Shown in pieces: positions 13,444 to 44,278 of a stretch of DNA of 64,000 nucleotides. How positions within the stretch are numbered: the stretch's first letter is position 1; each line of letters starts with the position of its first letter. The DNA is taken from NCBI RefSeq assembly GCF_007990525.1, contig NZ_AP019823.1:1054001-1118000 (forward strand), written 5' to 3'. Source of the stretch: Leptotrichia hofstadii (GTDB taxonomy: Bacteria; Fusobacteriota; Fusobacteriia; Fusobacteriales; Leptotrichiaceae). The notes under the pieces are model-generated. The model saw only the letters and a program-made list of their open reading frames with translations, had not been told where the DNA came from and did no database searches. The position numbers and the translations under genes were made by a program.

Positions 13444-14229
13444 ATGGAAGAAATATTACACTATGAAAATGTAACTTTTAAGCGTAATGGAAGAGAAATA
13501 TTGAAAGGAATTGACTGGCATATAAATAAAGGTGAGAATTGGGTACTTTTGGGACTTAATGGTTCTGGAAAGTCAACCCTTCTTGGAATGATACCAGCCT
13601 ACATTTTTCCAACTTCTGGAGAAGTGAGAGTTTTTGGTCATAAATTTGGTAATTATTCTTGGAAAAAAATAAAGAATCGAGTCGGATTTGTAAGTTCCAC
13701 ATTAAATAATTTTTCAAGCACATTAAATGGCGAAAAACTGGAAGATGTTGTAATTTCTGGAAAGTTTAGTTCTATTGGGATTTATGATGAAGTTACAGAT
13801 GAGGACAGGGAAAAGGCGGATAAGATTATTGAGGATTTTAGGATTTCGTATATAAAAAGTAATCATTTTGGCACTTTGTCACAAGGAGAGCAACGACGGA
13901 CATTGCTTGCAAGAGCGTTTATGAATGAGCCTGATTTGCTTATACTGGACGAGCCTTGTTCAGGGCTTGATGTAACTTCGAGAGAGTATTTTTTGAAAGT
14001 GCTTGAGGAAAATTCCAAAAATGATAATGCAATACCATTTATTTACGTAACTCATCAGATTGAAGAAATTATGCCGTCAGTAACTCACGTGGCACTTCTT
14101 CACGATGGAAAGATTTTGGCAAAAGGGCTTAAAAAGGATATTTTAACAGGTAAATTGCTTTCTCAGATGTTTGGTTTGGATGTGAAGATTGTATGGGAAA
14201 ATGAAAGACCTTGGATGATTGTGAGATGA
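13444..14229 (+). CDS. ABC transporter ATP-binding protein (YlmA/ModF-like)
   Basis: A 261-residue ATPase. Walker A is GLNGSGKST (about 38-46), the ABC signature is LSQGEQRR (about 146-153), and Walker B is LLILDEPCSGLD (about 167-178), followed by the switch His in YVTHQ. The start VTFKRNGREILKGIDWHINKGENW is typical of the YlmA/ModF-like group, which often works without a known permease. No permease gene adjoins it here. CGAGGGAT precedes the ATG. Confidence 0.88.
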   Translation: MEEILHYENVTFKRNGREILKGIDWHINKGENWVLLGLNGSGKSTLLGMIPAYIFPTSGEVRVFGHKFGNYSWKKIKNRVGFVSSTLNNFSSTLNGEKLEDVVISGKFSSIGIYDEVTDEDREKADKIIEDFRISYIKSNHFGTLSQGEQRRTLLARAFMNEPDLLILDEPCSGLDVTSREYFLKVLEENSKNDNAIPFIYVTHQIEEIMPSVTHVALLHDGKILAKGLKKDILTGKLLSQMFGLDVKIVWENERPWMIVR

Positions 14230-16183: not shown

Positions 16184-16639
16184 ATGAAAAAAATAATAAT
16201 GATAATGGGAACGGCTCTTGTTCTTTCATCTTGTGGAGTTGTTGGAGCGGCAGGAAGTATTGCTGGAGGGACAATTAAAGCGGCTGGAACTGTTACAGGA
16301 GCGGTAATTAAGACAACTGGAAATATTATTGGCGGAATAATCGGCGGAAATGATGGAGAAATTAATGCGAAAGGTGTTAAGTATAAATTTTCTAAGGCAA
16401 AAGTTGAAAATGATGGGAATACGACAATTGTAACAGGAGTTTTAACAAATAGTGGAAGCAGAAAGGAAAATGTTACTATTGAAATCCCTTGCTTTGATAA
16501 AAAAGGAACAAAAGTCGGAGATGCTGTGGACAGCACTGATTCCATTGATAAAAATAAAAAATGGGAATTTAGGGCTGTTCTAAATTCGGGAGATGTAAAG
16601 GCGTGTAAAGTGAAAGATGCTTATGTAAATGCTCAGTAA
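16184..16639 (+). CDS. FxLYD-like lipoprotein
   Basis: A 151-residue lipoprotein: signal with lipobox LSSC (Cys17), then a Gly/Ala-rich flexible segment (residues 18-55, GAAGSIAGGTIKAAGTVTG), then a beta domain with NTTIVTGVLTNSGSRKENVTIEI, the pattern of FxLYD/DUF3426-type extracellular domains. AAAGGAT precedes the ATG. Its stop is just 11 bases from the convergent small-RNA locus, whose last stem may also terminate this transcript. Confidence 0.75.
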   Translation: MKKIIMIMGTALVLSSCGVVGAAGSIAGGTIKAAGTVTGAVIKTTGNIIGGIIGGNDGEINAKGVKYKFSKAKVENDGNTTIVTGVLTNSGSRKENVTIEIPCFDKKGTKVGDAVDSTDSIDKNKKWEFRAVLNSGDVKACKVKDAYVNAQ

Positions 16640-16650
16640 AAATATTAAAT

Positions 16651-16745
16651 AAAAAATTGCTGTATGTATTGTTCTAAATCATCCAAAGAAAATGGGGAAT
16701 CGAACCCCTTTAGAAGTAGGAACAATTTATTGACAGCAATTTTTT
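16651..16745 (-). ncRNA. Y-RNA/tRNA-like RNA unit A (last unit of the locus)
   Basis: Read on the minus strand. Outer stem: 13 perfect pairs between 16733-16745 and 16651-16663. After an asymmetric loop (ACAU on the 3' side) comes an inner stem of 7 perfect pairs, 16720-16726 with 16668-16674. The apical part opens with the shared CTACTTCTA (complement of 16711-16719) and contains a tRNA T-arm mimic, GGGG-TTCGATT-CCCC (complement of 16694-16708). The outer stem ends in six U residues, as in an intrinsic terminator. Structure is read from the sequence; the RNA identity is inference. Confidence 0.65.
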
Positions 16746-16840
16746 TTCCGTATGTGTTATTCAAATGGAGCCGATAATTTTATGGGCTATCGGCAGAACC
16801 CTTCCAAATAGCTAGAAGTAGGAATAACTTTTTGACGGAA
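16746..16840 (-). ncRNA. Y-RNA/tRNA-like RNA unit B (middle unit)
   Basis: Same architecture as its neighbours with different stem sequences. The outer stem pairs 16746-16751 with 16835-16840 (6 bp). The loop again has ACAU on the 3' side. The inner stem pairs 16756-16762 with 16822-16828 (7 bp, GTTATTC/GAATAAC on plus). The conserved CTACTTCTA is the complement of 16813-16821. The apical part differs: a 7-bp hairpin GCCGATA/TATCGGC (16769-16794) replaces the canonical T-arm, although GGGTTC is retained just before it. Compensatory stem changes relative to units A and C support a folded RNA. Confidence 0.6.
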
Positions 16841-16936
16841 TGTTATTGTATGTAATGTTCATAGAGCGGGAGTCGAACCCACAAGGGAAAATCCCATTAC
16901 CATAATAGAAGTAGGAACAACCTTTTGACAATAATT
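16841..16936 (-). ncRNA. Y-RNA/tRNA-like RNA unit C (first unit after the promoter)
   Basis: Outer stem: 16843-16849 pairs with 16928-16934 (7 bp). The inner stem pairs 16856-16860 with 16915-16919 (5 bp). The same ACAU loop strand and CTACTTCTA (complement of 16906-16914) are present. The apical part shows two arms on the minus strand: a small GGGA-TTT-TCCC hairpin (a possible D-arm mimic), then a perfect T-arm, GTGGG-TTCGACT-CCCGC, 5 pairs and a 7-base loop as in tRNA. No acceptor stem or anticodon arm exists, so it is not a tRNA. Confidence 0.65.
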
Positions 16937-16945
16937 CTTACAATG

Positions 16946-16974
16946 ATAATAACATAAATTTTAATAAATTTCAA
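16946..16974 (-). promoter_or_regulatory. Promoter of the tandem small-RNA locus
   Basis: On the minus strand TTGAAA (16974-16969) is followed after exactly 17 bases by TATTAT (16951-16946). The predicted start, about seven bases on, is at 16937-16939, immediately before the outer stem of unit C. It lies in the 45-base gap after the stop of the TerD-domain gene, so the RNA locus can be transcribed independently of it. Confidence 0.65.
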
Positions 16975-16981
16975 ATAAAAG

Positions 16982-19312
16982 TTAAAAATAATTTGCTAAA
17001 ATATCATTTAAAGGCAATGGATTATCATTATCAAGTTTATCGAAAATAATATCTGCATTTTCTTTTTCAAAAACCTGTGTTCCTCTGGCTATTGCATTTA
17101 ATTGTAAAAGTTCATACATTGTAACATATTTTTTATTCACAAAATATTTAAGCACATCTTCCAAATGGGCAATATCCGTTTGATTCAAATAATTATTGGA
17201 AGAAAAGTTTTCAGAAACAGGCATATTCATATCAATCCAGATATATTCATTTTTTTCAAAATCAATCAAAATTGTATTAGTTGTTCTTGTATTTGACAAA
17301 ATTTGAAAACCTTGTGTAACTGCTGATGAATAAAGATTTTTGTCACTCATAGCCTCTTTTTTTGTCAGTTCAAGCACTCCAGCATACACACTTCCAATTT
17401 CTTCAAAAGAAAATCCATTATATGAACGGATTTCCATAAGAACATAACGAGTGTCAGAATTTTTCAATTTTTCCAAATTATAAACATCAATAAATTCCAA
17501 AGCTCCATTTGGTGCATTTGTAATATCCCCACTAAATACAAAATTAGGTTCAACTTGATTATAATAAGCGACTGTTTTCAAAAATTTGAAATTTTCATCA
17601 AAACAAATAACCGATAAATCAATATCAACTCGTATATCATTTTTCTTTTCTTTAATATTTTTCCAGCCAACAAAAAATCTTAAAACTTCCGCATCATTAT
17701 TAAATGAAAATCTTGATCCTCTTGTCATCGGTTTAAGGGAAATATTACTATCTTTTTCACTTGTTGTAATTGCAATATTTTTATAGCTTTCATCAATGAA
17801 AATATTTTCTAGCGGATTTTTTAATTTTAAATTTTCCAAAATTCCATTTTTTACAGTTTCAAGTAAAAATTTTAGTAAACTTTCATTCAAAAATACAGTT
17901 TCATCTAATTTTCTCCAAGTTCCTTTACTATTTACAATTCTTGGAATAATTTCGGTTTCTTGCTCAATTTCATTATTTTCAATTTCTTTGTTTTCTAAAT
18001 TTTCATCCTTATTAATGGTACTTCTAAAAATATTTCTAATCTTAAAAAAGTTTTTACTTTTTTCTTCGCTTATTTCCTGTTTTTTAACAATATTTTTCAA
18101 ATTTTCTTTTTCCAATAAATTCAAAATTCTATCATAAAGTTGAAAAAGAATACGATTATTTACATCTTTCATACAATTTTTTAATCCGTTTGTAATAATT
18201 TCATATTGAGTTTCGCTGGCATTATTTAAAAGGGATAAAACATTTCTGACATAATCTCCAGAGTATTTTGAAAATTTGGTAATAAAAATTTTCAATTCAT
18301 CATTGTTCAGATTTTGAATATTAACGCTCATTTTATTAAAATACCCTTTTTCTGTTTCAAAAAAAAACTCTCCAAACAGCATATCAATTGCTTTTTTAAC
18401 ATTTTTATATTTTTTCAAATTAATTTTTTTCGCATAAAACATAAAAAACTTATGCCAAACTTTTCTGTATCTTTTAATATCTGGTAAAATATTTGAAATA
18501 CTATCCAATTTTTCCATAATTAAATTTAATTCGGTTCGATTAAAATATTTAAAATGTATATGTTTTGTATTCAAAATATTATTTTCATTAAGTTTATCAT
18601 TTGAAATTTTCGTAATTAATCGTAAAATATCAGTTGCAGTGTTAAAATTTCCAGCCAAAAAATTTCTATGTTTCAAAGTATGACTGGCAAGCGTTGTCAA
18701 AGTTTCTTTCATTTGAATATTATCACAATATTGTTCAAGTTCTTCATCAGAAAATCCGTCAGATAGAAAACAAACATCATCTAAATATTGCTGGGAAAGT
18801 GTAATATTACTTGAAAGTAAGTTCACAAAAAGTGTTTCAATTTCTTGATCTCCTACAAACTTTAAATGAGAAAGTGTAAATAATTCAGCTGGTTCTGATC
18901 CTAAATCTTCTTTTTCAGTATTTTCATATGGTAAATATCCAAACCAGTAGTGTAAAATCTGATTTAAATAAATATCGGCTTTTTCCATATTTATCACTTC
19001 GTTTGGAAAATTTTTATAAAAAATAGTATAATTTTTATCAGATTTAAACTCTTTTATATTTTCCAATACTTCTTCACATAATAAAATTGCATATTCTCTA
19101 TCCAATCTAGAGATTATATAAGCCAAGTCTTTTTCAAAAGTATAACCAAATCCTTGAAATTTTTTTACGATAGTTGCAAATTCACTAACAGACAATGTAT
19201 TTCTATTTTCATCAAAGAAATTCCTGTTATTATCAATTTTTTTTAGTTCATCTTTTTGAATATAAATACCATTTAAATGTCTTAAAGTTATATTATTTAT
19301 AGATTTTATCAT
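16982..19312 (-). CDS. Helical-repeat protein with C-terminal TerD-like domain
   Basis: A 776-residue cytosolic protein. Residues 1-420 are all-helical, HEAT-like by eye, and contain a conserved-looking FPNEVINMEKADIYLNQILH segment (about 103-122). Residues 420-460 are a charged linker. The last 300 residues carry a TerD-like beta domain: VGWKN, then RVDIDLSVICFDENFK with the DxDxS calcium-type motif, YYNQ, and the SGDITNAPNG loop. TerD proteins belong to tellurite/stress-response systems. A canonical promoter and AGAGGAG site precede the ATG. The three RNA units follow directly downstream on the same strand. It lacks an obvious TROVE or vWA domain. Function not established. Confidence 0.75.
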   Translation of the reverse strand: MIKSINNITLRHLNGIYIQKDELKKIDNNRNFFDENRNTLSVSEFATIVKKFQGFGYTFEKDLAYIISRLDREYAILLCEEVLENIKEFKSDKNYTIFYKNFPNEVINMEKADIYLNQILHYWFGYLPYENTEKEDLGSEPAELFTLSHLKFVGDQEIETLFVNLLSSNITLSQQYLDDVCFLSDGFSDEELEQYCDNIQMKETLTTLASHTLKHRNFLAGNFNTATDILRLITKISNDKLNENNILNTKHIHFKYFNRTELNLIMEKLDSISNILPDIKRYRKVWHKFFMFYAKKINLKKYKNVKKAIDMLFGEFFFETEKGYFNKMSVNIQNLNNDELKIFITKFSKYSGDYVRNVLSLLNNASETQYEIITNGLKNCMKDVNNRILFQLYDRILNLLEKENLKNIVKKQEISEEKSKNFFKIRNIFRSTINKDENLENKEIENNEIEQETEIIPRIVNSKGTWRKLDETVFLNESLLKFLLETVKNGILENLKLKNPLENIFIDESYKNIAITTSEKDSNISLKPMTRGSRFSFNNDAEVLRFFVGWKNIKEKKNDIRVDIDLSVICFDENFKFLKTVAYYNQVEPNFVFSGDITNAPNGALEFIDVYNLEKLKNSDTRYVLMEIRSYNGFSFEEIGSVYAGVLELTKKEAMSDKNLYSSAVTQGFQILSNTRTTNTILIDFEKNEYIWIDMNMPVSENFSSNNYLNQTDIAHLEDVLKYFVNKKYVTMYELLQLNAIARGTQVFEKENADIIFDKLDNDNPLPLNDILANYF

Positions 19313-19512: not shown

Positions 19513-20526
<1,014 letters not shown>

Positions 20527-44203: not shown

Positions 44204-44278
44204 GGCGACATGGTCGAGGGGCTTAGGCAGAGGTCTGCAAAACCTTGTACACCGGTTCGAATCCGGTTGTCGCCTCCA
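44204..44278 (+). tRNA. tRNA-Cys (anticodon GCA)
   Basis: Acceptor arm GGCGACA (44204-44210) pairs with TGTCGCC (44268-44274). The anticodon loop is CTGCAAA with GCA. The T arm is CCGG-TTCGAAT-CCGG. The discriminator is U, as in Cys tRNAs, and CCA is encoded (44276-44278). Confidence 0.97.

Follow-up and report, generated by a model that had tools for sequence, protein, structure and literature searches.

Which kind of gene occupies the interval between a TerD-domain gene and a convergent lipoprotein-like gene in Leptotrichia hofstadii, and does it act alone? An earlier note on this DNA, a stretch of 64,000 nucleotides here called the window, described the interval as a self-contained RNA gene with three tandem Y-RNA/tRNA-like modules. 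In the bacterial Y RNA YrlA, the basal stem tethers the protein Rsr, and tRNA enzymes modify the tRNA-like domain, which also binds PNPase (PMC8394870). Here we describe three RNA modules of an apparently new family in the window. Judging from sequence comparison, they and the product of the adjacent gene, as their dedicated protein partner, probably form a two-part RNA-protein system.

Three tandem RNA units in the window

The minus strand from 16651 to 16937 contains three tandem direct-repeat units of about 95 nt each, spaced by 102 and 93 nt from unit to unit and transcribed in the order C, B, A. The array is located between the TerD-domain gene and the lipoprotein gene. The features of the locus are:

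16982-19312, minus strand: candidate partner protein gene, 776 aa, with an N-terminal all-helical domain (about 1-404) and a C-terminal TerD-like beta domain (about 477-776)
16946-16974, minus strand: promoter TTGAAA-17-TATTAT, sigma-70-type with extended -10 (TG), ahead of unit C and just past the stop codon of the upstream gene
16937-16838, minus strand: RNA unit C, first transcribed; outer stem TTATTGT/ACAATAA, inner stem TGTTC/GAACA, CCUACUUCUA, anticodon-like hairpin, T-arm mimic at 16882-16866
16840-16746, minus strand: RNA unit B; outer stem TTCCGT/ACGGAA, inner stem GTTATTC/GAATAAC, without T-arm
16745-16651, minus strand: RNA unit A; 13-bp outer stem AAAAAATTGCTGT/ACAGCAATTTTTT, inner stem ATTGTTC/GAACAAT, T-arm mimic at 16708-16694
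16184-16639, plus strand: lipoprotein-like gene, a convergent neighbour that is not conserved with the RNA and protein genes

The stems, ACAU loops and shared strings which the earlier note had described for the three units were all found in the sequence. Outer stems measure 7 bp in unit C (up to 11 bp with a bulge), 6 bp in B and 13 bp in A, and inner stems 5 bp in C (plus a G-U pair past a mismatch) and 7 bp in both B and A. Common to the three units are ACAU on the 3' side, ahead of the 3' outer strand, and CCTACTTCTA directly after the inner stem; CTACTTCTA strings are likewise present in all of them. The 5' loop of each unit is short and A-rich, and the tip is variable. Compared with shuffled sequences, folding was more stable for unit A (z=-5.1) and unit B (z=-3.5), whereas unit C folded no more stably than its shuffled versions (z=-0.44).

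The proposed promoter stands at 16974-16946, and its spacing is kept in three related genomes, which carry TTGATA-17-TAAAAT before their first unit. At the other end of the array the predicted U run is present, but the terminator scan did not find a canonical terminator; the U run at the 3' end of unit A may serve as one.

Neither Rfam nor ARAGORN matched the array region; in the whole window both identify tRNA-Cys at 44204 alone. Rfam matches around the array at E<=10 (snoRNA, tymovirus tRNA-like and others) were at chance level. A DNA similarity search of the array against phages found nothing.

Mimicry of tRNA arms

Two of the tips imitate a tRNA T arm, namely GGGG-TTCGATT-CCCC in unit A (16708-16694) and GTGGG-TTCGACT-CCCGC in unit C (16882-16866). 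When both strands of the 64 kb were scanned for a T arm with the loop pattern TTCGANN, only units A and C and the real tRNA-Cys matched. The mimics in A and C had been recognized before; the accompanying statement that an anticodon arm is missing does not hold for unit C, in which an anticodon-like hairpin precedes the T arm. The same arrangement is found in a lone copy in a related genome (G005, see below). A D-arm is hinted at by folding alone.

Among the units of the wider family described below, 21 of 293 tips carry a T-arm, compared with 0.24 in shuffles. The 21 include a few genuine tRNA genes that lie immediately downstream. Since most tips (about 93%) are without T-arm, tRNA mimicry may be optional.

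Relatives of the array within the genus

Three other genomes of the genus (G005, G006 and G012) each carry two similar units after the stop codon of the protein gene. Covariation, which had been claimed from the three window units, extends over the nine genus units, where 95.7% of the cells are paired and both sides have changed in 7 of 18 pairs. When 40 related genomes were searched with a covariance model built from these nine units (R2), matches were confined to the four genomes which carry the protein. In each of the three genomes other than that of the window, R2 detected one additional lone copy.

The lone units of G005 (L279 3138-3247; G005:C1:1374637-1374746) and G006 (L280 3154-3263) carry both anticodon-like and T-arm mimics and adjoin ilvC; in L279 the unit lies between an ABC-ATPase gene and ilvC. 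The window's homologues of those two genes, at 13444-14229 and 19516-20526, flank the whole system. This position of the lone unit, beside homologues of the genes that bracket the window's system, suggests that in G005 and G006 the protein gene was lost or moved and one RNA was left behind. The lone unit of G012 occupies a third site and has its own TTGATA-17-TAAAAT promoter (L281 3296-3420; G012:C1:696295-696419).

The adjacent TerD-domain protein

Within the genus, 4 of 13 genomes contain the gene at 16982-19312; elsewhere in the phylum, it was absent from every genome searched. Residues 348-748 of its product match NCBIfam NF041916 (MXAN_6230/SCO0854) with E=1.6e-57 and 195 of the 600 bits required, so that the curated cut-off is not reached, and a RING match is absent. 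By sequence, the window protein is a relative of the MXAN_6230/SCO0854 family without RING. It shares with that family homology and a TerD-like C-terminus; it differs in scoring far under the 600-bit equivalog cut-off and in lacking RING, and the entry names no RNA partner.

An AlphaFold2 model based on 65 homologues (pLDDT 82.9) predicts that the N-terminal part is helical and that the C-terminal part adopts a TerD fold, and Foldseek aligned the model with the TerD structures 3ibz (E=4.6e-5) and 2kxt (6.8e-5), each at probability 1.00. Sequence searches of the protein against the PDB and Pfam gave chance-level matches only, save RING matches in a few homologues. A RING cysteine pattern was found in none of 77 homologues, though this is a coarse pattern, and RING models do match some of the homologues. 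The first searches of genome contigs and viral sequences, started from four close proteins, gave no match, and a wider alignment was required.

Around the protein gene of G005, G006 and G012 the neighbours differ from those in the window, and clustering of the neighbourhoods found no conserved third gene. As neighbour genes do not recur, the RNA-protein pair stands alone.

A wider RNA family beside homologues of the protein

Homologues of the protein were gathered from plasmids, phages, genomes and viral contigs, and a structured RNA recurs alongside them. Homologues accompanied by one to six RNA copies occur in Firmicutes, Acidobacteria, Pseudomonas, Vibrio plasmids and jumbo phages. The 5' half of the family consensus consists of an outer stem ending in GG, CUAU (together GGCUAU), an inner stem of 8 bp, UUCCUUCUA and a variable tip; the 3' half consists of the inner 3' strand, five nucleotides (mostly RNUUU), CC and the outer 3' strand.

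Around 149 unique protein loci, the strict motif was found 218 times within 1 kb on the strand of the protein gene, never on the opposite strand and once farther away. Of these 218 matches, 185 are upstream and 33 downstream of the gene. They belong to 114 loci with one to six copies each. Of the 149 loci, 16 have no strict motif nearby; in the flanks read, this was the case for L022, L152, L155, L158, L171, L172, L177, L178, L179, L182 and L183. Such motif-free homologues, several of them in phages, either have an RNA that has diverged further or encode their RNA at another site.

The linkage was recovered independently of the protein. A scan of all viral contigs for GGCTAT-N7-CTTCCTTCTA returned 80 stretches; the protein is encoded in 52 of them, in every case on the strand of the motif and mostly less than 200 nt away. 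The 28 stretches without the protein include several true units at other phage sites, many of them within tRNA clusters; others are chance matches in coding sequence. Phage units in tRNA clusters whose tips resemble tRNA 3' halves (GGTTCGA arms) were seen at L221 2861-3948, L261 about 2229 and L196 about 2865. When 21 cellular genomes were searched whole, 36 of 37 model matches fell at the protein locus.

In 30 diverse units, 15 of 16 pairs are altered on both sides, and 93.1% of the cells are paired as compared to 55.2% in shuffled and 39-48% in slid alignments. The covariation recurs in 92 model matches. Rfam matched neither the window units nor their relatives in the family, in line with the earlier suggestion of a new RNA family. 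In one phage contig (L123 4400-4470), a skipping-rope RNA (RF02924) and a tRNA stand directly ahead of four family units, which hints that they form a common RNA island. The skipping-rope RNA resembles the family units in being a structured RNA that adjoins them in this contig; it differs in structure, and Rfam matches RF02924 separately and not the units.

Relationship of the window units to the wider family

A general covariance model (R1), built without sequences of this genus, did not detect the units of the window and of the related genomes, and R2 in turn detected none at the other loci. Because this cross-detection failed in both directions, the genus variant is assigned to the family by its linkage, architecture and register. 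The window array lies on the same strand beside the gene of a TerD-domain protein, and the two-stem plan as well as T-arms in tips are shared with the wider family. Directly after the inner stem the window units carry C-N-U-N-C-U-U-C-U-A; in this ten-base segment, window CCUACUUCUA and family CUUCCUUCUA stand in the same register. The score of the window segment is reached by only 5e-4 of window positions (p=5e-4 per position). The bridging variants CAUACUUCUA, CUUACUUCU and CAUCCUUCUA occur in Ruminococcus (L046, L103), Priestia (L064) and phages. On the basis of gene linkage, two-stem plan, segment register and the habit of forming T-arms, the window RNA is very probably a divergent branch of the family.

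Comparison with Ro60 and Y RNA

The window units follow a Y RNA-like plan, with a long basal stem formed by the paired ends, an internal loop and an inner stem. As in the complex of Ro60/Rsr and YrlA (RYPER), there is a basal stem able to hold a protein, an asymmetric loop and a second stem; as with YrlA, the tip mimics tRNA in part of the members and the RNA genes adjoin the protein gene. Unlike Ro60, the partner in the window has a TerD domain and is without TROVE by sequence or profile; unlike YrlA, the new RNA has invariant segments of its own and no Rfam match.

In agreement with the earlier note, there is no TROVE protein, the domain being absent from the whole genome and also from 65 homologues. 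Profile comparison with TROVE by hhalign gave a probability <1% (positive control 99.8%), and Ro60 is absent among the PDB matches listed for the helical domain. No Rfam model of the Y-RNA type matched in the window at gathering threshold or at E<=10, and none matched in the relatives. TROVE genes co-occur with the protein in 6 of 26 cellular genomes; they are separate, and no TROVE locus bears this RNA.

Since the partner is without TROVE and the profile comparison stayed below 1%, the window RNA is not a Y RNA by membership, and the likeness is an analogy of architecture only. From the former description as Y-RNA/tRNA-like modules, the mimicry of tRNA arms remains and membership of the Y RNAs does not. 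The array is also not self-contained, because it has a conserved partner in the adjacent TerD-domain gene. Among the outcomes that the earlier note had named as speaking against an RNA gene (no homologous structures, protein coding or decayed tRNA sequence), none was found.

Proposed function and alternative explanations

The tests run place neither the RNA nor the RNA-protein pair in a known kind; nearest by design is Ro60 with its Y RNA. By analogy, the RNA-protein system may work like Ro/Y. We propose that the two-stem base, the asymmetric loop and the C-[U/A/C]-U-[C/A]-C-U-U-C-U-A segment form a handle, which would be gripped by the helical domain. The tip, which is variable and often tRNA-like, could serve as a tether for tRNA-handling enzymes or as a competitor of tRNAs. 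The overall design would thereby resemble Ro60 with Y RNA, built from an unrelated protein and RNA handle. The TerD domain, as a guess from the Ter literature (PMC7824862), might link the particle to signals of stress or infection. Handling, guarding or decoying of tRNA in stress or infection is the most likely reading by analogy, since Y RNA is built likewise and phage units with tips like tRNA 3' halves lie inside tRNA clusters. The most far-reaching form of the proposal has, in our estimate, about even chances. It envisages a second, TROVE-independent Ro-like RNP in bacteria and jumbo phages, in which a TerD-domain protein grips small RNAs of one family by their invariant two-stem handle, while the tips are interchangeable and in some cases mimic tRNA; this would give a Ter-type stress protein its first RNA partner, with a likely role in phage-host tRNA conflict.

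A different origin of the same plan would be a true, highly divergent Ro60/Y RNA pair whose helical N-terminal domain is a TROVE ring diverged too far for sequence methods to recognize. The basal stem, asymmetric loop, inner stem and tRNA-like tip do match YrlA (PMC8394870), and in a viral fold library the protein model weakly matched the phage TROVE protein A0A7M1S068 (E=0.024, probability 0.98), the first functionally named match outside its own family and TerD. Against this stand the 0 of 65 homologues matching TROVE, the hhalign result with its working control, the lack of Ro60 among the PDB matches listed for the helical domain and the separate TROVE genes in 6 of 26 cellular genomes, whose loci are without the RNA; we consider such an origin unlikely. 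Tandem RNA copies adjoining one protein gene in phages and on mobile DNA are also reminiscent of type III toxin-antitoxin systems (ToxIN-like), in which case the tandem RNA would neutralise the protein, and the patchy distribution (4 of 13 genus genomes) and the occurrence in phages and plasmids would fit. However, the protein gave no ToxN-like or other PADLOC or Pfam match and belongs to no nuclease family, and the units are long and two-stemmed, with differing tips, lone dispersed copies and positions on either side of the gene, so that a neutralising RNA appears quite improbable.

That the units are cis-regulatory elements of the protein gene or its neighbours (riboswitch, attenuator or processing site) might be argued from the majority of copies, which lie on the same strand a few hundred nucleotides upstream of the gene. 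However, the units of this genus, of Niallia and of many phages lie downstream of the stop codon; the array has its own promoter, lone copies are found distant from the gene, and many loci have two to six copies. The chance that such regulation explains the units is therefore slim. Decayed tRNA genes or a DNA repeat without RNA function would account for T-arm sequences lacking acceptor arms; they would account neither for the massive covariation in both stems nor for the exclusively same-strand gene linkage, ARAGORN calls no tRNA there, and we give this explanation hardly any weight. The two-part RNA-protein system is the reading we prefer.

The RNA appears to constitute an undescribed family with strong covariation, which ranges over Firmicutes, Acidobacteria, Proteobacteria, Verrucomicrobia, Chloroflexi, Fusobacteriota and many large phages. 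In openly licensed PMC papers, nothing was found on this RNA or on the RNA-protein pair. A protein family hitherto known just as 'RING domain-containing' gains a candidate, testable RNA partner. If true, this would be, to our knowledge, the first RNA link for any TerD-domain protein. The design of Ro60 and Y RNA may have arisen anew from unrelated parts.

RNA-related genes were seen near some copies of the system. They include an annotated RNA ligase on a Vibrio plasmid (L024 9020-9658), an apparent CCA-adding enzyme near phage copies (L168 7521-8766, with relatives in L130 and L143) and a PemK-type mRNA interferase near the copy of Lactobacillus phage LpeD (L022, 5438-5776).
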